From Gillisia sp. CAL575 (GTDB taxonomy: Bacteria > Bacteroidota > Bacteroidia > Flavobacteriales > Flavobacteriaceae), in NCBI RefSeq assembly GCF_000403785.1, contig NZ_APHJ01000021.1:186001-250000 (forward strand): 64,000 nt of DNA, given 5' to 3'. Each line of letters starts with the position of its first letter. The first letter of the stretch is position 1. The notes under the pieces were generated by a model. It made no database searches. It worked only from the letters and a program-made list of their open reading frames with translations, and was not told the DNA's origin. This document shows, in pieces, positions 14,727 to 35,716 of this stretch. The translations under genes were made by a program, and so were the position numbers.

Positions 14727-14801
14727 TTGTTTTGATTTAAATACTGATAAACGCTTTCAAAAATTATTTGAAAAGAAAACAATTTAATTTAATTTTAATG
14801 G

Positions 14802-14816: not shown

Positions 14817-14878
14817 TTATCATTGTTTTAATTTTTCTTCCATATAACTTTAAAACATCTCTTTTTTAATAAGAAACT

Positions 14879-14927: not shown

Positions 14928-14986
14928 AGAATAAGATACAGTATCTTTTTAATAAAGTTAAACTTCAATTTCAACTAATAGCATAT

Positions 14987-15083
14987 ATGCGCCCTCTGCT
15001 GTTTTTACTTAACGCTTATCTTCCCGAACGCTATAAAAACAGCACAGGAACCACGCGCAGATTAGTTATGGTAGATTTGGGGG
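14987..15083. repeat. 97-nt hairpin repeat, copy 2
   Basis: Second copy of the repeat at 13540-13636, in the same orientation. The inner stem GCTGTTTTTA/TAAAAACAGC and the GCGC and AACTAAT/ATTAGTT outer pairs are kept, the last extended by paired changes compared with copy 1. Confidence 0.75.
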
Positions 15084-15265
15084 CAAGTCAGAGTTGATAT
15101 ATTTATTAAAATCCGTCTACTTCCTCAGCTATAAAATAGAAATCTTTAATTATCGTTCAATCACGAGCTTTAACTAAGGTTTTAAGTAAATTTGAGATCA
15201 CGAAGGATTTTTAGTAGAGAATGTATATATTATAAATAATTTTTTAATGCTTTAAATTTTGATGT

Positions 15266-15871
15266 TTGATACAACAGCAAGACAATTATTATATTCTATT
15301 TAAAAATTGGAGTTTGGATCCAAACCAATGGTCTATGCTCATGGATGGCACCGCGGTAATATTGACTCTACTAGGATTTATAATCGCCTTCTGGCTTTAT
15401 CAAGTACAAAGAAAAGACAAGGCTACAGATGCTCAGAGGTTTTTTAAAGCTTCGCTTCCGGGATTAAGATCTTCCATACAATATGCAATCGCAGACCTTA
15501 GGGAATTTAAAGAATCATTAGATCTGGATAAAGTGGTAGACCCGGTATTATCTGTTTCCCTCAATGATAAGTTTCTTGAAAAAGTAAACTTGGTAGCACT
15601 TAATCGCTATTATGCAAAAAATGATAAATCCAGCCTGAAGCATTTTAATCGCCTACTGGTAGATTCAAATTTTTTTGGTGATTATAGGGATTATATTACC
15701 AATCAGATAAAGTATTTTAGAACCGTATACCTGGAAAGAGAAGAGACCAGATCCAGTAATATGCTTAGAATGAAGGAAAAAATCAGAATAGTTTTAGACA
15801 AAGACATTTCCAGATTTGAAGAAATTCTTGCTAATATTGATTTACTACTTCTCGAAAATCCTGGGAAATAG
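15266..15871 (+). CDS. Hypothetical single-pass membrane protein
   Basis: A 201-residue protein with one hydrophobic helix at about residues 27-46 followed by a charged, helical C-terminal domain of 150 residues. The start is TTG at 15266; a later Met24 (15335) is an alternative that would place the helix at the very N-terminus. No family is recognised. It stands upstream of the LytTR system with a 130-nt gap, so a shared role is unproven. Confidence 0.55.
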   Translation: MIQQQDNYYILFKNWSLDPNQWSMLMDGTAVILTLLGFIIAFWLYQVQRKDKATDAQRFFKASLPGLRSSIQYAIADLREFKESLDLDKVVDPVLSVSLNDKFLEKVNLVALNRYYAKNDKSSLKHFNRLLVDSNFFGDYRDYITNQIKYFRTVYLEREETRSSNMLRMKEKIRIVLDKDISRFEEILANIDLLLLENPGK

Positions 15872-15999
15872 TGCTAGTTGAGCCTCGCTATTTTTTTACT
15901 GAAAATTTAAAGTGTCATACATTAAATTCAGAGAATGGATAAACAGAAAAAGCTGTGTTTTCCTTTCGAATGCAATGCAATGTACTTAACAACTTAGCA

Positions 16000-16007
16000 T
16001 ATATTTG
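16000..16007 (+). promoter_or_regulatory. -7 box for a short-leader transcript of the response regulator
   Basis: TATATTTG fits TAnnTTTG exactly. The true gene start is the ATG at 16020, only 12 nt downstream, so the mRNA would have almost no leader. No good -33 element is seen. Confidence 0.5.
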
Positions 16008-16019
16008 TACTTTTACTTT

Positions 16020-16772
16020 ATGATTAAAGCGGTAATAATTGACGATGAAATAAATGCACAAGATTTATTGGAGAAAACCCTAAACAGGTATTTTCCAAAT
16101 AAATTTAATATTGTGGAAAAATGCGATTCAGTAGATTTAGGGGTGCGTGCAATTAAGGAATACGAACCTGAGTTGGTGTTTCTTGATATTCAAATGCCTG
16201 AAGAAAATGGCTTTGAGCTGTTTAAATATTTCGAGCTTATAAAATTTGAAGTCATCTTTACCACTGCATATAATCAATTTGCTATTAAAGCAATTAAGCG
16301 CAGTGCTTTAGACTACTTGTTGAAGCCCATTAATCATCTGGATCTAGCTGAAGCCATCAAAAGATTTGAAAACAGAAATAAAGGGAATTTCGCTCATAAA
16401 AAATTATCTTTATTACTCGAAAATCTGAATGTAAACGACCAAAACGTTAGTAAAATAGCCTTTCCAACCATTGAAGGCTTTGAATTAATTCATTCAAATC
16501 AAATATTATACTGCAAGGCAGAAAGCAACTATTGTTGTATTAAAAAAATTGAAGGCATTTCTAAAACGGTTACAAAAACATTAAAATATGTAGAAGAAAT
16601 ACTTCCAGCCACGTCCTTTATAAGAATTCATAAAACCTACGTTATTAATTTAAATTATATAGTTAGGTACAACAAGATTAATAAGGAAGTTGAATTAACT
16701 AATGGAGAGAAGCTTCCTGTTTCTTTTCGAAAAGAAGAAGAATTTATAAATGCCATCTTACAAAACAATTAA
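16020..16772 (+). CDS. LytTR-family response regulator
   Basis: Cytoplasmic regulator of a two-component pair. The receiver domain (about 1-120) has the acidic pair Asp8/Asp9 and the phospho-acceptor Asp56 in FLDIQMPEENG. The C-terminal LytTR DNA-binding domain (about 150-250) has IYCKAESNYCCIKK-type text and SFIRIHKTYVINLNYI. I start it at the ATG at 16020 because an upstream TTG in frame would lie inside the -7 promoter box. Its end overlaps the sensor gene by 23 nt, so the two are translated together. Confidence 0.93.
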   Translation: MIKAVIIDDEINAQDLLEKTLNRYFPNKFNIVEKCDSVDLGVRAIKEYEPELVFLDIQMPEENGFELFKYFELIKFEVIFTTAYNQFAIKAIKRSALDYLLKPINHLDLAEAIKRFENRNKGNFAHKKLSLLLENLNVNDQNVSKIAFPTIEGFELIHSNQILYCKAESNYCCIKKIEGISKTVTKTLKYVEEILPATSFIRIHKTYVINLNYIVRYNKINKEVELTNGEKLPVSFRKEEEFINAILQNN

Positions 16773-19734
16773 ACTTTTCCTTCTCTTTTTTTTGTGGGCT
16801 TCTATCGCCTTCACCCAAAATTATCCGAGTAAAAATTTCACTGCATCCAAGGATTTGCCAAACAATACCATTAGGTCTTTATTGGTAGACTCCAATAATA
16901 TTCTTTGGATAGGTACTGAAAATGGAGTTGTAAAGAAGGAAAATGACGTTTTTACAAACTTTTTTGAAGAGGATGGATTGGCATTAAACAGTTGCTGGGC
17001 CATTGCAGAAGATAAAAACAAAAAATTATGGTTTGGAAGCTACGGTGAAGGAGTTAGCATTTATAACGGCAACGATTTTGATGTGATTTCACAAGAACAG
17101 GGGTTGGTTCACAACGAAATAACTAAACTCTTTGCTAATGGAATTTATATGTATGTGGGAACCAGTGATGGGGTTTCTATTATAAATATCAATACCCTTG
17201 AGGTTCTTTCTTTAAATAATCATTTAGATAATGCACTATTTAGGGTTCAGGACTTTTTTGAATATAGGGATGAAATTTATGTGGTCACCTATAATACCGG
17301 AGTCTTCAAAATTGACCATAAGAAAGACCAACCCGCTTTGGTAAAAGTGAATGATTATACATACAATTATTCTGTTTTTGTGGATAATGACAGTATTTAC
17401 AGCAGTAATAAAGGCTTTTTTACAAAAAATAGTATTGTAGATTTTGTAAATGAAATAGATACCATACCCTCAAAAAAACTTGGAGTTTCTATTATCTGGG
17501 ATTATGTTAAAAGTAAGGACAATAAAATTTTTGCAGCAGCATGGGGAATTTACGATAGTAATGGAGGAATTTATGAAGTTGCAAATAATAAACTTATTTC
17601 CAGAGCATCAGATTTTAATATTGGCAGTAAAAAAGTAATTTCCTTAGCCTATGATGGCCGCTTTGAAAAATTATATATTGGAACCAAAGACGCCGGTCTG
17701 TTTGAAGTAAAACTGAATCCACAAATAAAATTCAACGAAATTCAAGGAAAGAATGTCCTTAGATTTGCTAGAACAAAGAACTCTTCTGCTGTATTATTAG
17801 ACGAAGGCATACTTTTAAAAGGCAATGAAAAGGAACAAACACTTAATTTACAACAACTTAAAAAATGGCAAGAAGAATATCTTTTAAACACCAAACTATC
17901 ATTGCCAAAACACCAGGATTCTTTTTATGAACTGGACTATAGCACGAAGGCAAGGGACATCAGTTTCTATGATATAAAAGTATCAAAAAACAGGTATTGG
18001 ATAAATACCAATATAGGTGTATTTGCTATAAAACCTTCAGGAACATTGGACAGGTATTTACCCCTGCATTCAGAAGAAATAAATTTTACGGAATCCGGGG
18101 ATCTAATTGAAACAAATCCTTATGGAGGACTAAGAATATATAGTGATCTGGACATTTTAAAATATACTCATTTTAAAAAAGAAGACCCCCAAACCCCCAC
18201 CATGGTGGTAAATAGCTTACGAAAGGATCTAAAAACCTATTTTTTATCTGTGTTTTCGGGACTATTTGTATTGGAGAATAATGAGTTTAAATCCTATTTA
18301 CATAATGGGATCTGGAAAGAAAAGAAGTTAAGACATATCACCACCTTAGGTGAAAATTACGCGATTTCCAGTGAGTTTGGGGATGTATTCATTCTAAATG
18401 ATGAAGCTTCCTTTAAACTTTTAAAGAAAATTCCTCGGGCTAAGATTCAAGGAAATACAATTTCATTCTTAAAGGAATATAAAGGCTACTTAATAATTGG
18501 AACAGAAAAAGGCTTAACACTTTATAAGAATAAGCGTTTTATCTTCATAGATGAAGAACAAGGACTTAAACAACCTTTATTAAGTGCAGAGGCAGTTGGG
18601 AACAACTTGTTAATTGGAAGTAAAAATGGCTATTATAGCATTAACCTTGATGCAATTAGCGATCCTGAGCTTTTAGTAAGTCAATTAAAACTCGAAGAGA
18701 TCTATATTAATAACAATAAATTTCTTTCTGAAAATATTGCGGACAAAGAGAAAATAAAGTTATCACACAATGAAAATACCGTACTGCTTAAATTTAGTAC
18801 GAACGCACATCCTAATCCGCATAAATTAAGTTATCAATACCGCTTAAATGCAAATAAAACATGGAGTCTCCCCTCTTCCAAACCCGAGATCTTCCTACCT
18901 TTTTTACCCACAGATAATTATAATGTAGCTATAAGAGTTATAGATGCCAGCACCGGTTTAAATTATACTCAAACATTGTTGAAATTTGCCATCCTTCCTC
19001 CTTTCTGGAAAACCTGGTGGTTTATATTGTTGATGATCGGATTAGTAGGTTTGGTGGTATATAGCATTATTAATTATCAAATAAGGCAAAACAGAAAGTT
19101 TGAAGAACAAAAAAGTTTGATACAGAAGCGTTTTGAAGAAACCAAAATGGAAGCATTACTTGCACAAATGAATCCGCATTTTATTTTTAACGCCATGAAT
19201 TCAATTCAAAACTATATTATGGACAGTGATGTAGATAATGCCAGCATTTTCTTAGGTGATTTTGCTAAATTAATTCGGCTAAACCTTGATCACTGCACAA
19301 AGCCAAGGATTTTATTAGTGGAGGAAATTGAATATTTAAGCTCTTATATTCGGGTTGAAAACACACGTTTTAGAAATAGAATTACGGTGCTAATAGAAAT
19401 AGATCCTTTAATAGATGTTTATGAGATGGAGATCCCCACGATGGTACTACAGACTTTTGTAGAGAATGTATTCGTACATGCCTTCCCTCCAAGTATCAGT
19501 AAGCCTACATTAACTGTCATTTTTATATTAGTGTCGGAGAATATCTTGCAATGCAAAATTGAAGACAATGGGATCGGGTTTTCACCTAATTCCACCAATT
19601 CGTTGCACGAGTCTAAAGGAGTTAATTTAGTGAAGGAACGATTGTCATTGCTTGGTCATAATATAGATCACGCAGTTCAAATAGTATCCACTAAGAATAA
19701 AGGTACTACTGTCACCATTAGCTTAGAGGTATAA
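16750..19734 (+). CDS. LytS-like sensor kinase with beta-propeller sensor (Reg_prop/Y_Y_Y)
   Basis: A 994-residue inner-membrane sensor. A signal peptide (to about residue 22, FTQ) is followed by a long periplasmic domain built of Reg_prop repeats such as ILWIGTENGV and KLWFGSYGEGV, then a Y_Y_Y-like segment (LSYQYRLNANKTW). One membrane helix lies at about residues 755-778. The cytoplasmic His-kinase domain begins with MNPHFIFNAMNSIQNYI, containing the phospho-acceptor His, and ends with GIGFSP and the ATP-lid glycines. The layout is that of sugar- or surface-polymer-responsive systems in Bacteroidota. It is paired with the upstream LytTR regulator by overlap. Confidence 0.92.
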   Translation: MPSYKTIKLFLLFFLWASIAFTQNYPSKNFTASKDLPNNTIRSLLVDSNNILWIGTENGVVKKENDVFTNFFEEDGLALNSCWAIAEDKNKKLWFGSYGEGVSIYNGNDFDVISQEQGLVHNEITKLFANGIYMYVGTSDGVSIININTLEVLSLNNHLDNALFRVQDFFEYRDEIYVVTYNTGVFKIDHKKDQPALVKVNDYTYNYSVFVDNDSIYSSNKGFFTKNSIVDFVNEIDTIPSKKLGVSIIWDYVKSKDNKIFAAAWGIYDSNGGIYEVANNKLISRASDFNIGSKKVISLAYDGRFEKLYIGTKDAGLFEVKLNPQIKFNEIQGKNVLRFARTKNSSAVLLDEGILLKGNEKEQTLNLQQLKKWQEEYLLNTKLSLPKHQDSFYELDYSTKARDISFYDIKVSKNRYWINTNIGVFAIKPSGTLDRYLPLHSEEINFTESGDLIETNPYGGLRIYSDLDILKYTHFKKEDPQTPTMVVNSLRKDLKTYFLSVFSGLFVLENNEFKSYLHNGIWKEKKLRHITTLGENYAISSEFGDVFILNDEASFKLLKKIPRAKIQGNTISFLKEYKGYLIIGTEKGLTLYKNKRFIFIDEEQGLKQPLLSAEAVGNNLLIGSKNGYYSINLDAISDPELLVSQLKLEEIYINNNKFLSENIADKEKIKLSHNENTVLLKFSTNAHPNPHKLSYQYRLNANKTWSLPSSKPEIFLPFLPTDNYNVAIRVIDASTGLNYTQTLLKFAILPPFWKTWWFILLMIGLVGLVVYSIINYQIRQNRKFEEQKSLIQKRFEETKMEALLAQMNPHFIFNAMNSIQNYIMDSDVDNASIFLGDFAKLIRLNLDHCTKPRILLVEEIEYLSSYIRVENTRFRNRITVLIEIDPLIDVYEMEIPTMVLQTFVENVFVHAFPPSISKPTLTVIFILVSENILQCKIEDNGIGFSPNSTNSLHESKGVNLVKERLSLLGHNIDHAVQIVSTKNKGTTVTISLEV

Positions 19735-19970
19735 CGATTACTTACAAATTCCATACGATTACTAAACGACCACTCATCGCTTTAACAAAAAATTTAGTTT
19801 TACTACAAATTAGGAGAGGTTGCGGTAGCTTTAATGGTTTATAGTTCCGGAAAATATTTTAGGTAGGGCTTTAATATTTTTGATGGGCTATAATAACTGT
19901 AATTTCTCCAAGGTTTGAAGCATTAACCGTTTTTATAAATCGGTTACTTGTTAAAATACAAAACCACTTT

Positions 19971-20829: not shown

Positions 20830-21720
20830 ATGTCTGTACGCCAAACAATTAAACGCCACTATAAAATTATTTCTCTTTTAAGACTTAGAGCTATGAGTTA
20901 TGAAGAAGTTCAGGAAGAAATGAATATAGATCCAGATTCTATAGAAGAAAGTTTAATGACTTCTCAAAGAACATTTCAACGAGACATTCTTGACATTGCA
21001 TCTATTTATGGAATTGAAATTGTATCTGACCGAAGTAAGAGTAAATACTTTATTAAAGATGATCTGGAAGAAACTCATTCCCAAAGATTGCGGGAGAATT
21101 TTGAAATCTTAAATGCAATTCGATTGTCAAAAAGCTTAGGAAATAGTTTGGTTTTTGAAGAGCGTAGATCTCTAGGAACTCAAAATATGGCAGGACTTCT
21201 TCATGGTATTGAAAATAACATAAAAGTGAAATTTGATTATCATAAATTTTATGATGATACAGATAGCAAAAGGGAAGTCATGCCCATTGCTTTAAAGGAA
21301 GCAAGAAACAGATGGTATCTTATTGCGGAAGATGGAGATACTATAATAAAGAATTTTGCTTTGGACAGAATTGTGTCGCTTGTAATAACCGAAATCAAAT
21401 TCAAACCCATTTTATATAATGTACATCAAGAATTTAAAGACACTTTTGGAATTATTAATGGCACTGATGAAAAACCAGTGAACGTACTTTTATCATTTAC
21501 CCCAAGGGAAGGCAGATATGTAGAATCTCTTCCGCTACATAGGAGTCAGAAACTAATCTCAAAGGATGATAAAGAGTATCAGTTTACTTATTTCATTAGA
21601 CCTACCTATGATTTTAAAATGGAGCTTCTTTCCTATGGAGATCAGGTGAAAATAGTCGAACCAAGAAGTTTGCAGAATGAAATCAGAGAACAACTCCAAA
21701 GTGCCCTAAATTCTTATTAG
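20830..21720 (+). CDS. WYL-domain transcriptional regulator
   Basis: A 296-residue regulator. The N-terminal winged-helix part (RHYKIISLLRLRAMSYEEVQEE and SQRTFQRDILDI, residues 8-55) binds DNA. The WYL domain (about 130-200) has the signature NRWYLIAEDGD. A WCX-like C-terminal part ends the protein. WYL proteins commonly sense nucleic acids or nucleotides and repress defence or DNA-damage genes. Here it is the last gene of the esterase operon, probably autoregulating through the CGACA palindrome. It lies 0.8 kb upstream of the GTPase operon, which it could also control. Confidence 0.9.
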   Translation: MSVRQTIKRHYKIISLLRLRAMSYEEVQEEMNIDPDSIEESLMTSQRTFQRDILDIASIYGIEIVSDRSKSKYFIKDDLEETHSQRLRENFEILNAIRLSKSLGNSLVFEERRSLGTQNMAGLLHGIENNIKVKFDYHKFYDDTDSKREVMPIALKEARNRWYLIAEDGDTIIKNFALDRIVSLVITEIKFKPILYNVHQEFKDTFGIINGTDEKPVNVLLSFTPREGRYVESLPLHRSQKLISKDDKEYQFTYFIRPTYDFKMELLSYGDQVKIVEPRSLQNEIREQLQSALNSY

Positions 21721-21776: not shown

Positions 21777-22046
21777 TTAAGTAGATAAAGACCAATAAAA
21801 TCCTAGAGAAATCAAAATGGAAACTCCCCATCCAGAATAATAGGGAATTCCGTTATTTGCCGTTGCGACAATACCTATATCAGAATTAAATAAGCTTCCT
21901 ATCGATGAGAAAGGTAAGATTAAGCCATGCCACATACCTGAAAAGAAACCATATTCTTGTTCAGTTACTCCTGTAGGGGCACATGATGTAACGCTAAGAA
22001 ATAGAAAGAGTATTAAAACTATTTTAATTATTTTTTTTAACTTCAT
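21777..22046 (-). CDS. Small lipoprotein with hydrophobic tail
   Basis: An 89-residue protein with a signal peptide and lipobox (LSVTSCAP, Cys22), the motif EYGFFSGMWHGLILPFSSIGSLF and a C-terminal hydrophobic segment. I recognise the GFxxGxWHG layout from small conserved envelope proteins of unknown function. It is on the minus strand, alone between the WYL and glycosylase-like genes. Confidence 0.6.
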   Translation of the reverse strand: MKLKKIIKIVLILFLFLSVTSCAPTGVTEQEYGFFSGMWHGLILPFSSIGSLFNSDIGIVATANNGIPYYSGWGVSILISLGFYWSLST

Positions 22047-22506
22047 AAAAGGGTTTTATCTAAATAAATATTGACTTTTAATTAATTTGAATCATCTATT
22101 AATTATATATCATTTGTAATGCATGATCAACTAATTAAAAATCAATGTTAGAACTTGATAGCGACAAGTCACGTCATTTAAAAATAAATCCATAAACGTC
22201 ATCTCCTGACGTTAGTAACGCATTAATTTGAAAATTGAAACATAAAAAATCCTAAAACACCGCTTTATGTAAATGACTGATTAATAATGGTAGGGCATTA
22301 ATAATTAAAATATCATAAAGTGGTTTCTAAAAAATCCCGGCAGTTGTGGATATCCTTTGGAAACATAAAAATAAAAACGATAACATTCAATTTCAACACG
22401 TTTACTAAATGGTCAAACATCGCTTTAACTTAAAATTTAGATTTACAGATGTTGGTTAAATATAAGTCCCTTATAAAAACAGCATCTTAAGCATTCTAAC
22501 CTACTT
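22047..22506. other. Gene-free stretch before the GTPase operon
   Basis: Contains a perfect AACGTCA/TGACGTT hairpin near 22195-22213 and a degenerate repeat (22403-22446) that resembles 19760-19803. Promoters for the downstream operon must lie here, but I find no clean TTTG/TAnnTTTG pair. Confidence 0.45.
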
Positions 22507-23166
22507 ATGATAAAAATTGTATCAGATTACTCTGCAATCACAGAAAAAATCAAAAAATATCACTCCTTGATTCTCAAGGAATGCCAAAATAATCCTCGTA
22601 TTAATGAAATTTATAAAGGATGTCAAGTCCTTTTCAGTCCATTGTTTGAAAAGCCGGAATTCCTATTGATCGGTTTTAACCCTGGAGGAGGCTACCATAA
22701 ATGGCATGGGAAAATTGTTGAACAATTTGACCCCATGCCTGAATTAGAATATTATCTCAATAAACATAGTTTAGGAGAACAAACTAAAAGCCTTTTTGCA
22801 CTGGCAGGTAAAGAGAATGATTTAGAAAACTCCACTGTAAAAATAAACTTCTATCCCTGGGCAACTGATAATGTAGCGGACTTTAATGAACTCATGAGTT
22901 TATTGCCAAAGGACTTAAGTTCTCAAATCTTTGAATGTGGAAGAGTTTGGACTAAGAAGATCATTGAAATACTAGAGCCTACTACGATAGTCTGTGAAGG
23001 CTTCAAGGCTTTTGATGAAGTACAGATTTTATTTCCGGAAAAATACAAGCAAGAAAAATCAGATTTTCACAGATCATTCCTGATAGGACAAAACACAATG
23101 GTTCTTGGATATAAAAGAAATCAAGGGAGCATAATAAATAAGGAAATTCTCGCAAAACAAATCTAG
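22507..23166 (+). CDS. Uracil-DNA-glycosylase-fold-like protein, unassigned
   Basis: A 219-residue protein. Near residues 54-63 LLIGFNPGGGY resembles motif 1 (the GxxPG and NPG loops) of the uracil-DNA glycosylase superfamily, including SMUG1-like members. Around 135-140 FECGRVWTKKIIEILEP is a helix in the position usual for the fold. The second motif (an HPS-type loop) is not clear, so the enzyme may have another activity or substrate. It lies 75 nt upstream of three tandem GTPases on the same strand and is probably part of their operon. Confidence 0.5.
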   Translation: MIKIVSDYSAITEKIKKYHSLILKECQNNPRINEIYKGCQVLFSPLFEKPEFLLIGFNPGGGYHKWHGKIVEQFDPMPELEYYLNKHSLGEQTKSLFALAGKENDLENSTVKINFYPWATDNVADFNELMSLLPKDLSSQIFECGRVWTKKIIEILEPTTIVCEGFKAFDEVQILFPEKYKQEKSDFHRSFLIGQNTMVLGYKRNQGSIINKEILAKQI

Positions 23167-23241
23167 CTAACTTCTTTACAGTAGGAGAATTTAAATAATC
23201 TACAAACAATAAGCAGTACATACCTAAAATCTAAATTAAAA

Positions 23242-25032
23242 ATGAAAGACCAATTGATATCTATCGCTGAAGCGAATAACGCAAAATCTATTGCTGAGAA
23301 ATTAAAGAATTTAAATAAAGAAGAATACAAAACATCTGTAGCATTCTTAGGAGAATTTTCTTCAGGAAAAACCACGTTAGTTAATGCTCTTTTGAGAAAA
23401 CAGTTTCTACCAAGTTTTGATAAGCCTACAACAGCTATTATTACCGAAATTACTAAAGGTGAAAAAAACCACTTTTACGTATTAGAATCAGTCAATGGCA
23501 CTATAACTAAGAAAGATATTGAAGTTAGTGAACTGGCTGAGGAGGTTCAAAAAGAAGGAAATAATAGAATTCTGAAAATAGAAGTTCAGGATTCCGACTT
23601 ACTTGATGACAACACTATTTTAATTGATACTCCAGGAGTTTCATCTATAAACGAAATGCACTCTAAGGTAACTTATGGTTATCTACCTTACATGGATGTG
23701 GTATTTATGGTAGTGAACATAAATATGGGTAGCATTTCTAAGAGCTTACAATCATTTATTGAAGGATGCCCAGAAAATGTAAAGGAAAAACTACATTTTG
23801 TGTTAAACTTTAAGGATACCAAATCACCTAGTCAAATTGAGAAATTAGTATCAGAGTTTAAACAATCCTTAGAAGAATTCATTTCTAACGCTAATATAAT
23901 TGTTGTTTCCTCTAAAGTTGCTATAAAAGCAAACACTTCAAATGATAGAGAGTTGTTTGAAAAAAGTGGCGTTGGTAAAATAGAAGAAGTTATTAAGTTT
24001 GAAATACCAAAAACGCATAAAATAATCGCTGAAGCGAGGTATGTAGAAGCTATTGAAAAACAAAGAGAAGATCTAAAATTTTTCCTGCAGGAAAAAGAGA
24101 AAAATCTAAAATTGGATAAGAGTGATTTTTTGAAAAAAATTGAAGAATTAAAATTAGAAAAACAAGAGCTAAAAAAAGAAAGCGATAAGATTTTTAGAGA
24201 TTTTGATGAGCTGAAAGAAAAGACTATTAATGCAGCTGAAGTTCTAAATAAGAATTATGTTTCATCTTTTATAAATGGTTTAAATAACGATAGCTTAGAA
24301 CCAGTTACAGCAGAGTATACTAGTGAATTAACGACTGTCTTACAAAGACACATAGATTCTGTTGAAAATTATAATTTACCTCCCTATATTCTTGACAAGC
24401 TGGCCAATTCCACAGTAAATAGCATTAATAATAAAGTAGGTATGACATTTCAAATAGCTAATAAACTACCTAGTTTAATTAATGCAGCTGCAATTGCTGC
24501 ATCCACTGGAGGCACTAGTTTAATTGCAAATGTTGCTGAAACGATAGTAGTTCAAGCAGGAGGAAAAGTATTAGAATTAGCGGAAAAACACATAGAAGAT
24601 AATCAAACAAAAGAAGAAGTTTCTAGATTAATTAATGATAGCAAAGAATTAGCAATTAATACGTTACCCGAAAAACAGATCAATGGTAATCCTGTATCTA
24701 GGAAAAGAGCTGTGGCTACGACAATCCTTACTGTTTTAGACCAATTGAATGTTACAGAATTTGCTAAAAATAAAATAACTGAAGCTACACAGAAAAGCAA
24801 CGTTTATAAAGCGTTAAAAGAAAATTCAAATAATATTATTAATGATATTTTCTCTGGAATTAATATAATTATTGTTCAAAAGATTGATGCCGAAATAAAT
24901 AATCCTATTAGAATTAAAGAGGCTGCTATTGAGGAAGTTAAAGCAGAACTTTCCAATTCGTCTGAGCAATTAAAAACAGCTAAAAATAAGATTTCTGACG
25001 ATTTGGTAACCCTATATAAAATAGCAAACTAA
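23242..25032 (+). CDS. Dynamin-like GTPase 1
   Basis: A 596-residue large GTPase of the bacterial dynamin type. P-loop GEFSSGKT at 37-44, switch Thr in PTTAIITEI (61-70), G3 motif DTPG at 129-132 and G4-like NFKD at 189-192. A charged coiled-coil stretch lies at about 275-320 and an amphipathic or hydrophobic segment (ANKLPSLINAAAIAASTGG) at about 400-430, which could insert in membrane. The end of the gene overlaps the next by 1 nt (TAATG). Bacterial dynamins remodel or tether membranes; some tandem sets are antiphage. The exact role here is unknown. Confidence 0.88.
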   Translation: MKDQLISIAEANNAKSIAEKLKNLNKEEYKTSVAFLGEFSSGKTTLVNALLRKQFLPSFDKPTTAIITEITKGEKNHFYVLESVNGTITKKDIEVSELAEEVQKEGNNRILKIEVQDSDLLDDNTILIDTPGVSSINEMHSKVTYGYLPYMDVVFMVVNINMGSISKSLQSFIEGCPENVKEKLHFVLNFKDTKSPSQIEKLVSEFKQSLEEFISNANIIVVSSKVAIKANTSNDRELFEKSGVGKIEEVIKFEIPKTHKIIAEARYVEAIEKQREDLKFFLQEKEKNLKLDKSDFLKKIEELKLEKQELKKESDKIFRDFDELKEKTINAAEVLNKNYVSSFINGLNNDSLEPVTAEYTSELTTVLQRHIDSVENYNLPPYILDKLANSTVNSINNKVGMTFQIANKLPSLINAAAIAASTGGTSLIANVAETIVVQAGGKVLELAEKHIEDNQTKEEVSRLINDSKELAINTLPEKQINGNPVSRKRAVATTILTVLDQLNVTEFAKNKITEATQKSNVYKALKENSNNIINDIFSGINIIIVQKIDAEINNPIRIKEAAIEEVKAELSNSSEQLKTAKNKISDDLVTLYKIAN

Positions 25033-26831
25033 TGGATTCAAAACATGACATAATTTTTCAGGATTTTGAAGCGATTCTCAAAAAAATGCTTGAACATTTT
25101 CAAGAACAGGAACATAATGAGAAAGCTGAAGAAATATTTAAAAACATTGGTGGCTTTCAGGAAATAAAAAATGAGATCGAGGATTACCAAAACACTATAA
25201 AGTCTCATTCCAAACCTTTAAGAGTAGGTTTTGTTGGTGGCTTCAGTACAGGGAAATCATCTATGATAAATAGCTTATTAGGAGAAGAAATCTTAGGAGT
25301 AAAATTAGAGCCCGCTACATCTCAAATTACAGAATTAAGCTATGGAGACAAATTTGAAGTTTTAGAAGTCACTAAAAATAAGGACTCCTATCTTTCGTAT
25401 AATGAAATTTCCTTATCAGAATATAAAAAGAAAAGCACAGATAGAAATAACAAAACAGAAAATTTATTGCGTTACAACATTAAATATCCCTCTAAAAATC
25501 TATCTCGTTTTACAATAACAGATACTCCGGGATTTTCCTCTACTTCAAAGGAAGATGATGAGCTAACAAAAAACTGTATCAAAACGCTAGATCTACTTAT
25601 TTGGATTTTCGACGCTAATAAAGTAGGCGATAAAAAGGAGTACGATAAAATTAAAGATTTACTCAGCAACACGAAGGTTATTGGGGTAATAAACAAAATT
25701 GACACTAAGTCTCCTGGAGTACGAGATAAAATTAGGACGGAAATTTTAAATGAAAAATTACTGGATGATGTATACTTTTATTCATCAAAAAAGGTATTAG
25801 ATGAGTTTATAAACCTCAGTTCCTTTAATGAAATTTTGGAGGATATCAATACTGAAATTAAGAATGGAGTAAATAATTTTGAGGAATTTGAAATCAAGAA
25901 ATCTGGCTCAGAAATTAGTTTTAAGACCGATACTAAAATAAAACCTTTTGTTTTGGTTCCTATTAAAAAAACAAACTATACCGAGTACTATGATACGCTT
26001 ATCGATAAAATGGATAGCGTCAGAGGAAATGACATTAATTTATTACTAAATCAAAACTTAGTAAATCAATACAATGGATTTAGACATTTAATAAATAGTG
26101 AATTACTCATTTATAAAGATGTTTTAAAAAAGGATATTAAAAATTATGAAAAAATAATTCAAAAAAATAATGATTTAATTGAGAAATCTGATTCCATATA
26201 TGAAAATCTAAAGGATGATTTTGTAAATAAGATAAATTCTAGTTTTAAAGTTTTTTACACTGCTTTCTTTGATGAGCTTGGAAGCTTCTTATTTGTTAAA
26301 TATGTTGACTCGGGAGTATTTTCTGATGATGTGCATATACGTATGAAAAATTTGAATGATGAAAATTTCAAAGAATCCTTGTATACATTTATTTCTGAAG
26401 AGTTTCATTCATATTTAGAAGAAAGTATTGACATATATCACAAAATAATAAAGAATTCTATTTTCAACGTGTACTCCAAAATTCAAGAAATTCGCGAAGA
26501 AGAGCATCATCTAATTAGGGCATTGGTAAATGGTTTAGCTAAAAGTAGTGTGGAAGCGATTACTGGTTATCATAGAAATTTCGAACCAGATAAAAAAATA
26601 GACTCCTACATAGACGCTCTGGAATTTCATAAAACCAATATAGATCTAGTAGTTCCAGATGAATTATTGGAAAATTCGATTAGCAATTTATTAATATATG
26701 ATTTAATTCATGCTGAAACAATTTACTATTTACCAAAGTTAGAGTCAAAAGTTAATGTTGCGAAATCCCTAAAGTCCAGCACCTCTGAAATTATAAATAT
26801 GATCGACAAACTACTGCTAAAATTAAATTAA
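25032..26831 (+). CDS. Dynamin-like GTPase 2
   Basis: A 599-residue large GTPase. P-loop GGFSTGKS at 69-76, PATSQITEL as switch I, G3 DTPG at 164-167 and a standard G4 NKID at 221-224. The remainder is helical, with a charged middle region. It lacks a strong predicted membrane span but has a hydrophobic patch near IWIFD. Its start overlaps the stop of GTPase 1, and GTPase 3 begins 1 nt after its stop. Similarity to GTPase 1 is confined to the G motifs, so these are old paralogues or unrelated family members rather than a recent duplication. Confidence 0.88.
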   Translation: MDSKHDIIFQDFEAILKKMLEHFQEQEHNEKAEEIFKNIGGFQEIKNEIEDYQNTIKSHSKPLRVGFVGGFSTGKSSMINSLLGEEILGVKLEPATSQITELSYGDKFEVLEVTKNKDSYLSYNEISLSEYKKKSTDRNNKTENLLRYNIKYPSKNLSRFTITDTPGFSSTSKEDDELTKNCIKTLDLLIWIFDANKVGDKKEYDKIKDLLSNTKVIGVINKIDTKSPGVRDKIRTEILNEKLLDDVYFYSSKKVLDEFINLSSFNEILEDINTEIKNGVNNFEEFEIKKSGSEISFKTDTKIKPFVLVPIKKTNYTEYYDTLIDKMDSVRGNDINLLLNQNLVNQYNGFRHLINSELLIYKDVLKKDIKNYEKIIQKNNDLIEKSDSIYENLKDDFVNKINSSFKVFYTAFFDELGSFLFVKYVDSGVFSDDVHIRMKNLNDENFKESLYTFISEEFHSYLEESIDIYHKIIKNSIFNVYSKIQEIREEEHHLIRALVNGLAKSSVEAITGYHRNFEPDKKIDSYIDALEFHKTNIDLVVPDELLENSISNLLIYDLIHAETIYYLPKLESKVNVAKSLKSSTSEIINMIDKLLLKLN

Positions 26832-26832
26832 G

Positions 26833-28824
26833 TTGAAAAAAAACATATTAAAAGAATATACTGCCAAGGTTAAGCAATTAAAAAATGCATTTCAAGATCT
26901 TGAGACAAATAACCTTGTACCCATAACTCACGGAGAAAAATCCTTTACCAAAGAAAATATTAAAGAGGTTCAGGATAATTTAAATAACCAAGAATTTACT
27001 ATTAGTGTTTGCGGACAAATAAATGCTGGTAAATCTTCATTTCTAAATTATTTACTTTTCAACGAAAAGGAAGTACTACCTGCAGATGACACTCCATGGA
27101 CTGCAAAATTAACTACAGTAAGGTATGGAGAAGAAAACCAAGCTACCGTAACATATTATAGCCAAAAGGAATGGGAACTCTTAAAAAGTCAGCAGATTAT
27201 TGATGATGAAGGAGTTGCAAAAACCTATTATGATGAATTTTTAAAGCAAGATGTGAATAATGCCGCTCTGGCAGGGTTACAAGTGGAGAATTACATCAAT
27301 ACCGATAATAAGATAGTATCTGGTGTAGCCCTAAATGACCTTAAAGATTACGTTACTAAAGGTGGGCACAAGACTCCTTTCGTTAAACAGGTAGATATTA
27401 AAGTGAATAACGAATTGGCTAGAGGTGTTGTCTTTGTAGATACTCCAGGTATCAATGACAGAAATGAGCTTCGATCTAAAGTAACTGAAGACTGGATAAA
27501 AAAGTCTTGTGCGGTAATCTATTTGTTCTATGCGGGGCAAGCACTTAGTACAGCAGATTATGAATTTATAGATCAACATCTCAGTTCTGTACCAACAGAC
27601 AAAATTCTTTTCGCACTAACAAAAGCTGATATTAGTGAAGATTATGAGGGTGCAAAAGCTTTTGTAGAAAGAACCTTAAAAGAAGATATAGAACTTAAAA
27701 AACGGAAATTTATTACTTCAAATAAAAGTGTCTATCCTATTTCTACACTATCTGCATTAATAAATTATAAACAAGAAAATAATTTAGAACTTAATGAGGA
27801 CGAAGAATTTCATTTAGAAAGAATCACAGAGGTAAGTCCTTCTTTCATTAAAAATAATGGCTTTATAGAAGAGTTTACAGATGGTCTTAAAAGTCATTTA
27901 ATGACTCAAACAGGAAAAGCCATTATAGATAAAGCAACTGCATTTTTATTTGACATCTACAAAACTAATGAAACATCGCTGCAATCTGACCTTAACACAA
28001 AAAAAGAGAAATTAAATGATCTTGAATTGTCTGATGATGAGCTTAAGCAAAAAAAAGCTTACTTAGATAAGACGCTTGACAACATAGAAAATTTTAAAAA
28101 ACAATTTAAAAGAAATACTCAGGACGAATTTGTTGCCAGATTAAAATCCAACCTTAAGAGAGAATTAAAGAAATTTAGAGAACGTGGATATAAAAATTTA
28201 GAAAAGAATCTAGAGGATGCTTCAGACGATTCCATTAAAGCTTTGAGAAATCTAGCAACACATTTAACGAAACAACATTTAGAAGACGCCTGTGATGAGA
28301 TTCATAATTCATTATTAAATAATTTATCGATTAAGGAAGAAATTAATGAACTTTTAGCAACATTTTCGAATAAATTTCAATTAATTATTCAGAATGTAAA
28401 AATTTATGATGACTCTCTTTCTTGTTTTGTAGAAAACCCCAACGGCATTATAGAAAGCATTTCTTTTGACCAATTAGCGGTAGAGGATTTAAAAAAAGTT
28501 TGTGGCTCCAATTGGGGAATAAATAAAGGGGATGTAAAAACACAAATTTTCGCAAAGATTAAAGAGGTATTCGAAAGTAATATAGATGAAATTATAAAGA
28601 AAGTATTGGCAAATGTTGGTAATGTAATTGAAAATAATATTAATGAGGTTTATAATAATGTCAATACCGAGGTGAAAAAGATCCAAAACAATGCTAACTC
28701 ATTGTTAGAAAGTAGTAAAAATTATGAGGAGGAAAAGGTCACCCTTCAATCAGGAATAGTTGAAACACAGGAAAGATTAAATTTTGTAAAGTCTCATTTT
28801 AAAACGTTACAGGAATGTATATAG
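26833..28824 (+). CDS. Dynamin-like GTPase 3
   Basis: A 663-residue GTPase; start is TTG at 26833, 1 nt after GTPase 2. P-loop GQINAGKS at 61-68, switch PWTAKLTTV, G3 DTPG at 203-206, and G4 TKAD at 263-266. Long coiled coils occupy about 370-470 and the C-terminal 100 residues. Its insertion between switch I and G3 is longer than in the other two. It overlaps the membrane protein gene by 10 nt. Of the three it is the one with most coiled coil, as expected of a stalk-forming partner. Confidence 0.86.
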   Translation: MKKNILKEYTAKVKQLKNAFQDLETNNLVPITHGEKSFTKENIKEVQDNLNNQEFTISVCGQINAGKSSFLNYLLFNEKEVLPADDTPWTAKLTTVRYGEENQATVTYYSQKEWELLKSQQIIDDEGVAKTYYDEFLKQDVNNAALAGLQVENYINTDNKIVSGVALNDLKDYVTKGGHKTPFVKQVDIKVNNELARGVVFVDTPGINDRNELRSKVTEDWIKKSCAVIYLFYAGQALSTADYEFIDQHLSSVPTDKILFALTKADISEDYEGAKAFVERTLKEDIELKKRKFITSNKSVYPISTLSALINYKQENNLELNEDEEFHLERITEVSPSFIKNNGFIEEFTDGLKSHLMTQTGKAIIDKATAFLFDIYKTNETSLQSDLNTKKEKLNDLELSDDELKQKKAYLDKTLDNIENFKKQFKRNTQDEFVARLKSNLKRELKKFRERGYKNLEKNLEDASDDSIKALRNLATHLTKQHLEDACDEIHNSLLNNLSIKEEINELLATFSNKFQLIIQNVKIYDDSLSCFVENPNGIIESISFDQLAVEDLKKVCGSNWGINKGDVKTQIFAKIKEVFESNIDEIIKKVLANVGNVIENNINEVYNNVNTEVKKIQNNANSLLESSKNYEEEKVTLQSGIVETQERLNFVKSHFKTLQECI

Positions 28825-29351
28825 AAAAGGAATTAGGAATTGGAGTAGGAATTGGTGTAGCCGTTGTATTCATTGGATATCTCCTATATAAAAAATCATC
28901 TGAAACTTCCTCAAACCACGAGGAGATAGAAAATCGTGGCGAAATTGAGAAAGCTATTAATTCATTTATTGAAGGCATAATTATAGATTTTTATAATGAA
29001 TATAGGATCAATTATCTTGGGGTTAGATATAATATAAAGGATCTAGCAACAGAAAACACCTATGTTTTTGAAACAAAGAGAGTAAGTTCTCTTAGTAGCA
29101 TTATTAATTACAATCAGATTCTTACTGGAGAAAAATATGTAAGCAAAGTAATTTGTAAAAAGTATAAAATTGAAGTTCCAGTTAGTGACCAGTTAGAGTT
29201 TATTACTGAAATCTCAAGAATTGAAGGTAAGATGAGAGCTGTTGATAGTGTTAAAAATCTTATCCCTGAAGAAGATTCTAACAGACTGAAGAAAGAGTTG
29301 CAGGAAGACTTATTGCATTATAAAACAAAGTATTCTTCTAATGCACTGTAG
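28815..29351 (+). CDS. Small membrane protein in the GTPase operon
   Basis: A 178-residue protein with one N-terminal membrane helix (about 5-26, GIGVGIGVAVVFIGYLLY) and a soluble domain outside or inside the cell. No family is recognised. It overlaps GTPase 3 by 10 nt, so is translationally coupled and likely a partner, perhaps a membrane anchor. A strong terminator follows. Confidence 0.7.
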   Translation: MYIEKELGIGVGIGVAVVFIGYLLYKKSSETSSNHEEIENRGEIEKAINSFIEGIIIDFYNEYRINYLGVRYNIKDLATENTYVFETKRVSSLSSIINYNQILTGEKYVSKVICKKYKIEVPVSDQLEFITEISRIEGKMRAVDSVKNLIPEEDSNRLKKELQEDLLHYKTKYSSNAL

Positions 29352-29374
29352 TAAATTGCGCTATCAATTTTCCT

Positions 29375-29418
29375 AAAAAAAAGGGTCATATTTTCAAAAA
29401 TATGACCCTTTTTTTTAT
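29375..29418. terminator. Bidirectional intrinsic terminator
   Basis: A long stem with AAGGGTCATATTT on one side and AAATATGACCCTT on the other, A-rich before and T-rich after. It works for both the GTPase operon (+) and the convergent restriction operon (-). Confidence 0.88.
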
Positions 29419-29438
29419 TTAGAAGTTTTGAAGATGGT

Positions 29439-29648
29439 TTAGGCCTTTTTAAACTCTAAAAACCCTGTATTTAAGTATCCTTCAGTTTTTAGATCCAGAC
29501 CATGTACTCTCATAAATGCATTGTGAACTTTTTCTTTTTCATCCAAGGGATTTGCAAACATTGAACTTATTTGAACGGAAAGTCCACCGTCTATAAATTC
29601 ACCTTGTACATTCATTGAATGTTTAGTTTTGATTTCAAATGTTGCCAT
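29439..29648 (-). CDS. Small conserved hypothetical protein
   Basis: A 69-residue protein beginning MATFEIKTKHSMNVQGEF, strand-rich, no signal. It is the last gene before the terminator on the minus strand, 131 nt downstream of the YgjP-like peptidase. The function is not known. It may belong to the restriction operon or have its own promoter. Confidence 0.55.
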   Translation of the reverse strand: MATFEIKTKHSMNVQGEFIDGGLSVQISSMFANPLDEKEKVHNAFMRVHGLDLKTEGYLNTGFLEFKKA

Positions 29649-29779
29649 ATTATAAGTTGTCTAATAATTTTTATAAGTGTAAATATTTTCCAGCATTGTT
29701 TAGTAATCTATAGTACAGGTAAATATCTAGAATTGTCTTCGAGCATTCCGCCTTGTTGAAAAGTTATTTCTAAGCCCAT

Positions 29780-30493
29780 TTAATATTTCCAATCTATATG
29801 ACTAAACGGTATCCTATTTAACTCTTCTCTATACATTCTCCACTTAGGCATAAATTCGTTCATATAACTTACAAATTTATCATTGTGACTTCTTTCTAAT
29901 AAGTGAACCAGTTCATGTACTATTATAAATTCGATACATTCTACCGGTTTTTTCGCCAATTCTAAATTAAGCCATATTCTTTTCGCTTCAGTATTGCATG
30001 TGCCCCACTTGGTTCTCATTTTCTTTATACCAAATTCGTTAGATTGTACACCAATAACTTTTTCCCATTTACTTATTAGTTTAGGGAGCATAGATTTCAA
30101 TTCAGAACGATACCATTCATCAATAATTTCTTTTCTTTTTGCTGTTGTAGTACCTGGTCTTACAAATAATACAATTTCACTATGGTTTAGAATAATATGT
30201 GGTGGTTGATCATGCTCCACTACTTTTAAAAGATACCGTTTACCTAAAAAATAGTGACTTTCTTTAGTTAAGTAATCTCTTGGTGTTTCTCTATCGTGAT
30301 TTTTAAAGGTTTCTTGCTGTTTTTTTATCCAACTTAACTTATTCAATGCAAACACACGAATATTGTCTAAATCCACTCTATTGGGAGCTGAAATACGAAC
30401 AACACCATTTGGCGGATAAACACTCAAATGAATATTTTTTATATCCTTGTGTTCCACCTCAATATTTATATTTCCTAACTGTATTTGCTGCAT
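29780..30493 (-). CDS. YgjP/WLM-type zinc metallopeptidase (restriction-associated)
   Basis: A 237-residue M48-like peptidase. The zinc motif is HELVH at residues 193-197 with LLERSHNDKF behind it, and RTKWGTCN at 160-167 is characteristic of the YgjP family. Such proteins are often encoded beside Type I restriction genes, but their role there is not settled. Its ATG overlaps the hsdR stop (TAATG), so it is translated with hsdR. Confidence 0.87.
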   Translation of the reverse strand: MQQIQLGNINIEVEHKDIKNIHLSVYPPNGVVRISAPNRVDLDNIRVFALNKLSWIKKQQETFKNHDRETPRDYLTKESHYFLGKRYLLKVVEHDQPPHIILNHSEIVLFVRPGTTTAKRKEIIDEWYRSELKSMLPKLISKWEKVIGVQSNEFGIKKMRTKWGTCNTEAKRIWLNLELAKKPVECIEFIIVHELVHLLERSHNDKFVSYMNEFMPKWRMYREELNRIPFSHIDWKY

Positions 30494-33610: not shown

Positions 33611-35716
33611 TTAATTTTGGGATGCCCAATCTTTTATTAAATCAAAAGGATTTCTTTTCTTATTTCCACCAACAATCTCAATATTCAGTGTGTTATTTTT
33701 ATTTAGCCCTAGATTGTATCTAAATTGTTGATTATAAACCTGAAAAATGGGATTATTTGATGGGAAATACTGACAATCTTCTATCCCTTCTGAAAATAAA
33801 GATCTATACCCTGTTTCTTTTACAAGCCAACCAAAATTGAAGTTATGATTTTTGAAAAATTGCTCAAAAGACAATTTGTAAATCCTTTCGGTAATAATGT
33901 AGTAAAGATAGAGTTGGTCTTCCACTAGCCTGATATCTGAAAAGTCTTCATATTTGCTTTCTAGATTCAAAATATACTCCTTTTGAATTTTTAGAAGATA
34001 ATTGGTTAAATCCAATTTAGACTCAGCAAACTTTTTAGCGAAAATTAGTATCGCAGGATGCTTTCTATATGAGTGCGAAAAAACAAAACGAGATTCATAA
34101 GTTTTAGTATATAGATCTGTGATTAGCATATTACCCCAAATAATATTGAAGTCGCTCTTCGAAATTTCTCTATAGCCTCTAAATATTTCTTTTAGTAAAT
34201 CAAAATTTGGAATATCATATTTGAAAGACTCAAGTTCCTTTCCCTCAAACTGGCTTGCCGAATTGGAGAATGGAGCTAAGAGTATATTTCTAATATTCCC
34301 TTTGAATTTTTTATGATCTTCTATTTTACCAACTAACTTTTTATATTGATTAAACTCTAATATTAATTTGGCTTTAAATATTTCTTCTTTTCTCTGTTCT
34401 ACATTTAACCCAATTAACTTATTACCATCCTTTAATTCATTTAACACCTTATAAACATTATCATTTGAAATAAGGTTTTGTAGTGAAGATATTAATCTTG
34501 GCCATTCACGTCTAGAATTATCAAGAGTATTTTCGATTAAATTTCTAATTACTCTGATGAAATCACTTAAGTTCGCTTCAGGCTTTTCTTTAAAACTATA
34601 TAAAAGTGTTAAAAAGAAAACATACAATTGATTGATATCCCGCCTGCCTGATAAAATATCTTTTAAGATACTATGTAAGGTTTCACCATCCCACAATATA
34701 ATTTCATTGTGATTTTTTACATCCTTTATAAAATCAAATGAAAATATTAGAAATTTTAAGTTTTCCTCCTTAGCGTAAACCTCTTTCAAGACTCTAAAAT
34801 CTAAGAAATCATTTTCGTAAGATTTTGCTCTAAACTCCGCATCCTTAAAATAAAGCATCTCAGTTATAAATCTCAAGTATTCCATAAATGGACTATCAAT
34901 TATATAAGAATCTTCATCCCTATAGTCCCAAAGATTATCTACCCATTCGTATTCAATTTTGTCCTTTACCTTTTCTAGTAATGAATGATTATACCTAATT
35001 ATCTTTGAAAATTCAGATTTAAAATTCTCGAATTCCGTGAGCATCTTTCCTCTTGCATTCATTCTTATATAGAGATTCTCAGTCAATCCAAATTCATCTA
35101 GATCTGTAAAATAGAAGGTTACTAAATTGCTCTTATCCCCAATAAGTTTATCAAGTAATTCATCCGGTGCATTAATCAAGTTCTCATTACTTGATAAGGT
35201 TTTGAGCATATTCAACATACCTGAAACGGTTGGATCGTTCTTCCATTCTTCATTGAACCAGACAGAATCTTCAATTTCCGATTTTATATTAGATAATTTT
35301 CCCACGGATTCCACTTCTAGAAGCAATTTGCAAAAATCATGAGCGGAGGGACGTGTCTCATATGAAAATCTTTGAAGAACATCTTTTATCTCATGGAGCC
35401 TATTTTCCTTTATAGCAATAAAAAAGTGCAGTAAAAAAAGTGTTGTTAGTCTTTGCTGACCATCTAATGGAATAAATATTTTTTGTTTTTCATCGCCTTT
35501 TAATTCAGGTAAAATAGAACCATACACAAAATCAAGCTCTATTGGATCATCTTTAAGAATTGAGGCAATCAAATAATCATCAACAAACTTTTCTCTTAGT
35601 CGCTGAACTTCAGGCGTACTCCGGCCCTGAGCATAATCCCTTTGAATGATAGGAACTTCAATTTTATGATAAGCATTGCATAGTTCCCAGAAAGTATATT
35701 TTTTATTCATTTTCAA
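33611..35716 (-). CDS. DUF262 (ParB/GmrSD-like) protein A
   Basis: A 701-residue protein of the DUF262 family. The key nucleotide-binding/nuclease-associated motifs are IIQRDYAQG (23-31) and LDGQQRLTTLFL (84-95), typical of the GmrS-like domain. The C-terminus is long and helical, without the HNH motif seen in the neighbour. It overlaps the second DUF262 gene by 14 nt, so the two probably act as a pair. Families of this sort restrict modified or foreign DNA or sense nucleotides; they are frequent inside Type I loci. Confidence 0.85.
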   Translation of the reverse strand: MKMNKKYTFWELCNAYHKIEVPIIQRDYAQGRSTPEVQRLREKFVDDYLIASILKDDPIELDFVYGSILPELKGDEKQKIFIPLDGQQRLTTLFLLHFFIAIKENRLHEIKDVLQRFSYETRPSAHDFCKLLLEVESVGKLSNIKSEIEDSVWFNEEWKNDPTVSGMLNMLKTLSSNENLINAPDELLDKLIGDKSNLVTFYFTDLDEFGLTENLYIRMNARGKMLTEFENFKSEFSKIIRYNHSLLEKVKDKIEYEWVDNLWDYRDEDSYIIDSPFMEYLRFITEMLYFKDAEFRAKSYENDFLDFRVLKEVYAKEENLKFLIFSFDFIKDVKNHNEIILWDGETLHSILKDILSGRRDINQLYVFFLTLLYSFKEKPEANLSDFIRVIRNLIENTLDNSRREWPRLISSLQNLISNDNVYKVLNELKDGNKLIGLNVEQRKEEIFKAKLILEFNQYKKLVGKIEDHKKFKGNIRNILLAPFSNSASQFEGKELESFKYDIPNFDLLKEIFRGYREISKSDFNIIWGNMLITDLYTKTYESRFVFSHSYRKHPAILIFAKKFAESKLDLTNYLLKIQKEYILNLESKYEDFSDIRLVEDQLYLYYIITERIYKLSFEQFFKNHNFNFGWLVKETGYRSLFSEGIEDCQYFPSNNPIFQVYNQQFRYNLGLNKNNTLNIEIVGGNKKRNPFDLIKDWASQN

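Follow-up and report, generated by a model that had tools for sequence, protein, structure and literature searches.

To our knowledge, bacterial defence dynamins are known either as single or fused proteins, such as DynA, or as pairs, such as Eleos, which is made of two dynamin-like protein (DLP) components. We analyzed a stretch of 64,000 nucleotides from Gillisia sp. CAL575 (contig NZ_APHJ01000021.1, positions 186,001 to 250,000), hereafter called the window, in which a unit of five genes encodes three dissimilar dynamin-like GTPases. The initial annotation of this stretch had compared the unit with Leo/Eleos-type systems, described there as usually two genes, one of them a fused pair. In enterotoxigenic Escherichia coli (ETEC), Leo is in fact reported to consist of three genes, the count of two holding for the DLPs, with LeoB and LeoC read as one split protein; the leo genes are also reported to affect vesicle release (PMC4159319). 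Dynamins and Eleos have been treated as one defence type (PMC11811056). DynA is described as delaying phage lysis, an effect lost in a double mutant of its P-loop lysines (PMC8844932). The Campylobacter proteins Cj-DLP1 and Cj-DLP2 are described as a heterotypic tetramer that tethers membranes, membrane repair being a speculated role (PMC6104087), and a Helicobacter island with three DLPs has been presented as a pathogenicity island (PMC8935386).

On balance, it seems probable that the unit of the window represents a divergent form within a widespread operon family with three DLPs, of lineages that we call A, B and C, and that the unit is controlled by a WYL-domain protein, acts on membranes and is antiviral. 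The second and third GTPases of the window belong to lineages B and C, which recur together in several phyla.

The five-gene unit and its three GTPases

Five co-directional open reading frames (ORFs) of the plus strand fill positions 22507 to 29351 of the window and are followed by a terminator. E2 is the D2 counterpart of locus L078, presented below.

22507 to 23166, plus strand: UDG-superfamily-like protein of 219 aa with the motif IGFNPGGG; no Pfam match of its own, homologues below the cut-off
23242 to 25032, plus strand: D1, dynamin-like GTPase of 596 aa, LeoA-like and possibly of lineage A (from profile comparison and tree); Dynamin_N E 2.3e-23, PADLOC LeoA E 2.1e-12
25032 to 26831, plus strand: D2, dynamin-like GTPase of 599 aa, lineage B; Dynamin_N E 1.9e-26, in the B clade with E2 (98/94)
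26833 to 28824, plus strand: D3, dynamin-like GTPase of 663 aa with a TTG start, lineage C, LeoBC-like; Dynamin_N E 1.7e-23, PADLOC LeoBC E 3.8e-11, PDB 5owv E 9.3e-26, C clade 100/99
28815 to 29351, plus strand: M, small protein of 178 aa with one predicted N-terminal membrane helix; hydropathy peak 2.19 at residues 7-25
29374 to 29417, plus strand: intrinsic terminator with a 20-bp stem, a 4-nt loop and a T-run; -24.2 kcal/mol, z -6.7

D1, D2 and D3 match Pfam Dynamin_N far above its cut-off and possess the G1 (GEFSSGKT, GGFSTGKS and GQINAGKS, respectively) and G3 (DTPG in all three) motifs. The G4 motif is canonical in D2 (NKID) and D3 (TKAD), and degenerate in D1 (NFKD). Motifs and family profile therefore agree with the three tandem full-length GTPases of the initial annotation, which are also the strong Dynamin_N genes of their genome, two further matches being weak. 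Since D1 shares only 27% identity with D2 and 24% with D3, and since D2 and D3 fall in separate lineages in the tree, these proteins are not recent duplicates, as had been proposed. The translational linkage that had been claimed is right to the base: D1 and D2 overlap by 1 nt, D2 and D3 are separated by 1 nt, and M overlaps D3 by 10 nt. This tight coupling and the terminator count for a unit. As regards the TTG start of D3, the alignment with its L078 counterpart begins at the same point. The hydropathy scan gave a single strong hydrophobic segment near the N terminus of M, for which scans of family and profile libraries yielded no convincing family match.

Counterparts in other phyla and the three DLP lineages

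A similar arrangement was found at locus L078, from an uncultured member of the Elusimicrobiales. After a first gene (246 aa), this locus carries orthologues of D1, D2 and D3, named E1, E2 and E3 and arranged as in the window, and then a membrane protein of 177 aa that overlaps the third of them; genes for HsdR and a WYL protein lie directly before the cluster. Identity between the GTPases of the two loci is 25-29%, and their pairwise scores, compared with those of shuffled sequences, reach z 49 for D1/E1, z 20 for D2/E2 and z 35 for D3/E3. The WYL proteins gave z 12 and the first genes z 1.6, a score not far above the shuffles. That another phylum shows three orthologous GTPases in this succession, with a short membrane protein behind them, suggests that selection has kept the three distinct DLPs and their partners together as a unit.

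Two further loci resemble it. L122, from a second genome of the phylum of L078, has a WYL gene and three DLPs, the first and second of which are separated by a short membrane protein; its first gene, 51% identical to that of L078, is on the opposite strand. L141 comes from the taxonomic order of the window and comprises, all in one direction, a UDG-superfamily-like gene, Hen1, Pnkp, a DLP, an ORF of 135 aa and two more DLPs. This ORF occupies the same place as the membrane protein of L122; its hydrophobic-looking start is below threshold and it was not counted as a membrane protein. At positions 8069-19304 of L141, a Hen1-Pnkp RNA-repair cassette is thus encountered between the UDG-superfamily-like gene and an A-B-C dynamin triple of the same direction.

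A scan of named genomes using a D3-based alignment provided at least 13 loci, L078 being one of them. A first tree defined lineages A, B and C with supports of 98/91, 96/81 and 96/98, respectively; D2 and E2 were unplaced and D1 joined E1 only, weakly (84/1). Loci shorter than 6.9 kb, L057, L059, L083, L069 (a cluster like that of L120, with broken frames) and ORFs with short GTPase matches were left out of it, and the first DLP of L082, which is split, has no position in the trees. A second tree (44 rows) was built from longer segments of eight proteins per lineage, without L029 and L080. D3 and E3 fall in C (100/99), D2 and E2 fall in B (98/94) on two long branches flagged by the program, and D1 and E1 group together (95/93) outside A, a grouping of both with A not being rejected (p-AU 0.43). 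Profile-profile comparison with eight outside groups gave as best partner A for D1/E1 (231.9, next 212.1), B for D2/E2 (197.2, next 180.9) and C for D3/E3 (307.5, next 197.2); in simple profile scores, E2 is best with B, and D3 and E3 with C. The window thus has neighbouring DLPs of lineages B and C. D1 is possibly of A type, an assignment that fits gene order and profile comparison and on which the tree is undecided. The order D1-D2-D3 would correspond to the A-B-C order of L050, L070, L077, L122 and L141, the order being A-C-B instead in L029, L071, L081, L120 and L121.

We count 16 C-lineage loci, namely the 15 of the C clade in the first tree and L141, which was found later and whose lineages were assigned by profile score and the second tree. 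The three GTPases are far from rarely found together: at least three DLPs are present at 14 of these 16 loci (four in L073; in L082 the first is split into two frames), although this is not a random sample, the loci having been found through D2- or D3-like similarity. Contrary to a system peculiar to the window, as first envisaged, clusters of three DLPs are found in many places: on plasmids of Moraxella, E. coli, Photobacterium, Pseudomonas aeruginosa and Calditerrivibrio, and also in Burkholderia, Brachyspira, Synergistaceae and a genome of the window's own phylum (G489). Six of the 16 C-lineage loci, counting L073, are on plasmids, but this share does not estimate a frequency, a plasmid collection having been searched on purpose. 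A hydrophobic stalk segment of at least 1.7 was observed in the four A-lineage proteins tested (L071, L050, L077 and L120) and in E1; the value is 1.36 for the A-lineage protein of L122. We found no description of a three-lineage DLP operon in the open-access literature, covered through titles, beginnings of abstracts and passages, subscription papers and preprints being largely outside this search.

Two observations concern related clusters. The Ruegeria plasmid locus L073, one of the 16, carries four dynamin-like genes in one cluster (2892-11257), two of which are in the C clade. L030, L119 and L072 possess three DLPs each, outside A, B and C; the first two are two plasmids of Lysinibacillus capsici FN9, each with a different three-dynamin cluster.

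Partners, regulator and island setting

The first gene of the unit had been called DNA-glycosylase-like. This assignment is weak for the window protein itself, which has no Pfam match and, with its profile, no PDB match, and whose C-terminal motif differs from what we take to be the UDG consensus. What stands is that two homologues, in G785 (39% identity) and G752 (31%), match the UDG superfamily below the cut-off (Pfam UDG E 4.6e-4 and 5.4e-4; 20.7 and 20.5 bits for a cut-off of 24.3). The gene of L141 comes closest, with 24.2 bits and E 3.8e-5. In L078 and L122, the first genes are of a separate family without significant database match, tied to UDG by motif appearance and a short collinear match; profile comparison of this family with that of the window protein gave a collinear match of 21 columns only (probability 6.4%, E 0.0058), which does not show kinship. 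Single-sequence AlphaFold models were too poor for use, with a pLDDT of 39.5 for the window protein and of 33.5 for the first gene of L078.

A UDG-like partner is recognised at four of the 16 C-lineage loci (window, L078, L122 and L141), at none of them above the curated cut-off, and scans by motif and profile, of limited sensitivity, recognised none at the other 12. The motif scan gave 3/19 DLP-cluster loci (window, L078, L122) and 1/19 controls (L076, fetched for its UDG-like gene); its sensitivity was poor, as it missed L141 and L075. The window-type family is also encountered at dynamin-free loci in G785 and G752, the G785 copy standing beside genes that read as type I restriction genes. 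In the 18-kb locus L075, which is devoid of dynamins, a relative with 39% identity lies beside HsdM- and HsdR-reading genes (8520-16369). A short same-strand membrane protein within or touching the DLP run was detected at 3/16 C-lineage loci (window, L078 and L122) and at 0/12 controls. The membrane protein is therefore a partner of one branch and not of the whole family. Both it and the UDG-like gene, which the initial annotation had listed among the partners, are variable.

Upstream of the unit, two features could be involved in its control.

20830 to 21720, plus strand: WYL-domain regulator of 296 aa (Pfam WYL E 9.3e-12, WCX 5.8e-12), probable regulator of the dynamin unit
22195 to 22213, no strand: perfect 7+7 inverted repeat AACGTCA-N5-TGACGTT, a possible (WYL) operator 294 bp before the first gene; a weak candidate, picked by eye after reading the sequence

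The WYL gene is the only PF13280 match in its 3.64-Mb genome. It starts 9 nt after an esterase-like gene, and its link to the dynamin unit is one of proximity and recurrence only. We searched for PF13280 in 26 genomes or records, 14 with C-lineage loci (the record of L073 and the genome of L141 are not in this count) and 12 controls with other DLP loci. A WYL gene lies within 5 kb at six of the 14 C-lineage loci (window, L078, L122, L071, L081 and L077), for a Poisson expectation of 0.135 (P ~7e-9, with placement taken as uniform and 18 kb of target in each genome). None of the 12 controls has one within 10 kb, three of them possessing no WYL gene at all. The 19.3-kb locus L141 contains no match to the WYL profile. 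In the same upstream region, a direct repeat of 71 bp, 79% identical (19733-19803 and 22376-22446), flanks the esterase-like and WYL genes and is perhaps a shared regulatory stretch or the trace of an insertion. Promoter scans stayed at chance level for sigma-70-like sites (57 for 48.1 expected, standard deviation 6.9), and at chance level or below for TANNTTTG (75 sites for 95.0 expected).

These data could also mean that the system consists of the three GTPases alone, with the UDG-like gene, M and the WYL gene as chance neighbours in a defence island. We regard this as a serious possibility, although on the doubtful side. It would fit the UDG-like family at DLP-free loci, the 12 C-lineage loci where no such gene was recognised by scans of limited sensitivity, an M protein without recognisable homologue and a WYL gene that follows an esterase-like one. 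However, a UDG-like gene stands next to or ahead of the DLP triple at four loci, the membrane protein is restricted to C-lineage loci when compared with the controls, M overlaps D3 and precedes the terminator, and WYL genes are in excess near C-lineage loci. A bolder and rather unlikely proposal would be that of a new class of bacterial immune machine, an obligate three-part complex of A, B and C dynamins on the membrane, controlled by the WYL protein. In one branch (window, L078, L122 and L141), this complex would be coupled to a UDG-superfamily protein and a small membrane anchor, linking recognition of foreign or modified DNA to a membrane response.

The surroundings of the unit are defence-like, and the restriction locus that had been noted beside it is indeed present. 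Downstream, and convergent to the unit, are found a gene for a YgjP-like metallopeptidase and a type I restriction cluster with HsdR, two GmrSD-like genes, HsdS and HsdM. The two GmrSD-like genes (33611-37523) are located inside this cluster, between HsdR and HsdS. The GC content of positions 22001-30000 is 0.29-0.30, against 0.31-0.39 in most other 2-kb segments, 34001-36000 being also at 0.30. Elsewhere, L071 is next to a helicase and to a gene with an EH signature (Pfam E 4.9e-17), which we take to be Zorya-like, and an annotated abortive-infection gene is found near L072. In L050 (G489), a protein with a TerB domain and a beta-helix is encoded between B and C (10273-11457). In the Synergistaceae contig of L077, C is followed by a HerA/DUF87 gene and by a gene with an HNH match just below the cut-off (12121-15881).

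In relatives of Gillisia the set is rare. D2 matched one of 199 genomes of the family, its own, and 18 of 395 of the phylum; D3 matched 25 of 296 genomes of a wider sample, the D1 profile 14 of 395 genomes of the class and the D3 profile 20 of 256 genomes of the order. The own genome is counted each time, and the wider samples overlap in part and were each searched with a different query. Matches beyond the own genome are remote and partial, except in G1173 (E 6e-41, D3 profile, order genomes). Because of this patchy occurrence, the three-GTPase set is accessory and not housekeeping in this group. The same-genus genome G111 offered no clean empty site: two short matches on a single contig are separated there by about 5.8 kb, where the window has 25.4 kb, and the genes between them look transporter-like by eye. 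Scans of viral contigs with D3, D2, the UDG-like protein, M and four alignments confirmed no relative, and tblastn searches gave no match for the UDG-like protein in plasmids or for D1 in phages.

Proposed function and relation to known dynamins

The antiviral role in our favored explanation, a WYL-controlled and membrane-acting operon with three DLPs, is probable from neighbourhood and distribution. By analogy with DynA, Cj-DLP1/2, CapW and the BrxR-like WYL proteins, we propose that expression is held down by the WYL protein until the cell is infected or its DNA or envelope is stressed. D1, D2 and D3 would then assemble on the cytoplasmic membrane as a heteromeric complex driven by GTP, in which the A-type subunit could touch lipid and M could act as an anchor. 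By remodeling or coating the membrane, this complex would limit phage release, the infected cell liberating few or late phages, either through a delayed lysis as for DynA or through an abortive infection at the membrane level. The UDG-like protein could be an optional sensor directed at DNA, or a second effector. The steps after gene expression are those that we infer.

Several points weigh against this explanation. M and its L078 counterpart display no detectable sequence similarity (z -0.2), and the membrane protein passes the hydropathy threshold at only three of 16 C-lineage loci. D1 has no hydropathy peak above threshold, which makes its contact with the membrane a guess; it also obtains 110.3 bits with a single-DLP model, more than its 77.3 bits with the A model, and is outside A in the best tree. 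The same preference for the single model is seen for D2 (75.5 vs 61.7) and, slightly, for E1 (77.4 vs 74.0). L079 and L080 have two DLPs only, and no WYL gene is nearby at eight of 14 C-lineage loci. We found no phage test of the window unit or of any A/B/C triple. DLPs also serve in vesicle release and envelope repair. Finally, in an island with predicted dynamins, those genes are reported as inactive against the phages tested (PMC12595487).

One could accordingly imagine a module for membrane maintenance, vesicle release or envelope stress, without specific antiviral role and carried as accessory DNA, as the influence of the leo genes on vesicle release in ETEC (PMC4159319) and the repair speculated for the Campylobacter pair (PMC6104087) would suggest, but the patchy occurrence of D2 (1/199 of the family), which is not that of a housekeeping gene in this group, and the WYL and restriction-modification neighbours make this unlikely.

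One would also wonder what such a family could teach. Were the antiviral role of the three-DLP operon true, it would extend the parallel with Mx, the antiviral dynamins of animals, and through the UDG link the recognition of DNA would be connected with membrane remodeling. Three lineages side by side in several phyla would mean a bacterial membrane machine for which three different dynamin subunits are required, in contrast to the solved heterotypic pair (PMC6104087), and they provide a clear gene set to test.

Comparisons with known systems help to situate the unit. CapW and BrxR are WYL-domain regulators beside defence genes (PMC9122588, PMC9122601), as the WYL protein of the window may be: CapW is reported to repress CBASS genes in uninfected cells (PMC9122588), and 48% of BrxR-family WYL genes to lie with known defence systems (PMC9122601). 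The anti-phage DNA glycosylase Brig1, a possible parallel for the UDG-like protein of the window, is described as a UDG-superfamily protein encoded in defence islands, but its single gene sufficed for immunity (PMC11078745). The DynA protein of Bacillus subtilis is a DLP with an anti-phage effect of delayed lysis (PMC8844932). However, it is one fused protein of two DLPs, and the NCBIfam DynA model, which has a cut-off of 1600 bits, gives D1, D2 and D3 scores of only 52.5, 38.8 and 59.3, respectively. The side-by-side genes of Cj-DLP1 and Cj-DLP2 recall those of the window, and D3 matches PDB 5owv (E 9.3e-26), which we take to be the Campylobacter protein. That operon nevertheless has two GTPases and a beta-lactamase-like gene, the passages available of its description making no mention of a UDG-like or WYL gene (PMC6104087).

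The ETEC LeoABC, Eleos and the "dynamins" of PADLOC are the nearest. With them the unit shares tandem dynamin-like genes, which in ETEC are on a pathogenicity island, and D1 and D2 resemble LeoA (PADLOC E 2.1e-12 and 1e-14) as D3 resembles LeoBC (E 3.8e-11). One could thus assume a simply diverged Eleos (LeoA and LeoBC) with one LeoA-like gene duplicated, the third GTPase adding nothing new. This assumption could call on the same matches, on the proteins of L071 and L050, where the C-lineage matched LeoBC best and the A-lineage LeoA best, and on the handling of dynamins and Eleos as one defence type (PMC11811056). We consider it improbable, since A, B and C form distinct lineages that co-occur in different phyla (in trees without Leo loci), the LeoA and LeoBC matches are weak (40.8-52.5 bits, in a library that shows no cut-offs), and the 27% identity between D1 and D2 does not point to a recent duplication. 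The profile search is in line with the earlier view of a system related to, but different from, the LeoA/LeoBC type. From these weak matches, and from three full GTPases where ETEC Leo has two DLPs, we therefore read the unit as a divergent three-GTPase variant of bacterial immune dynamins and not as Eleos proper: in place of the two DLP components of Eleos and the PADLOC "dynamins", the window possesses three separate full-length GTPases, accompanied by UDG-like, membrane-protein and WYL partners.

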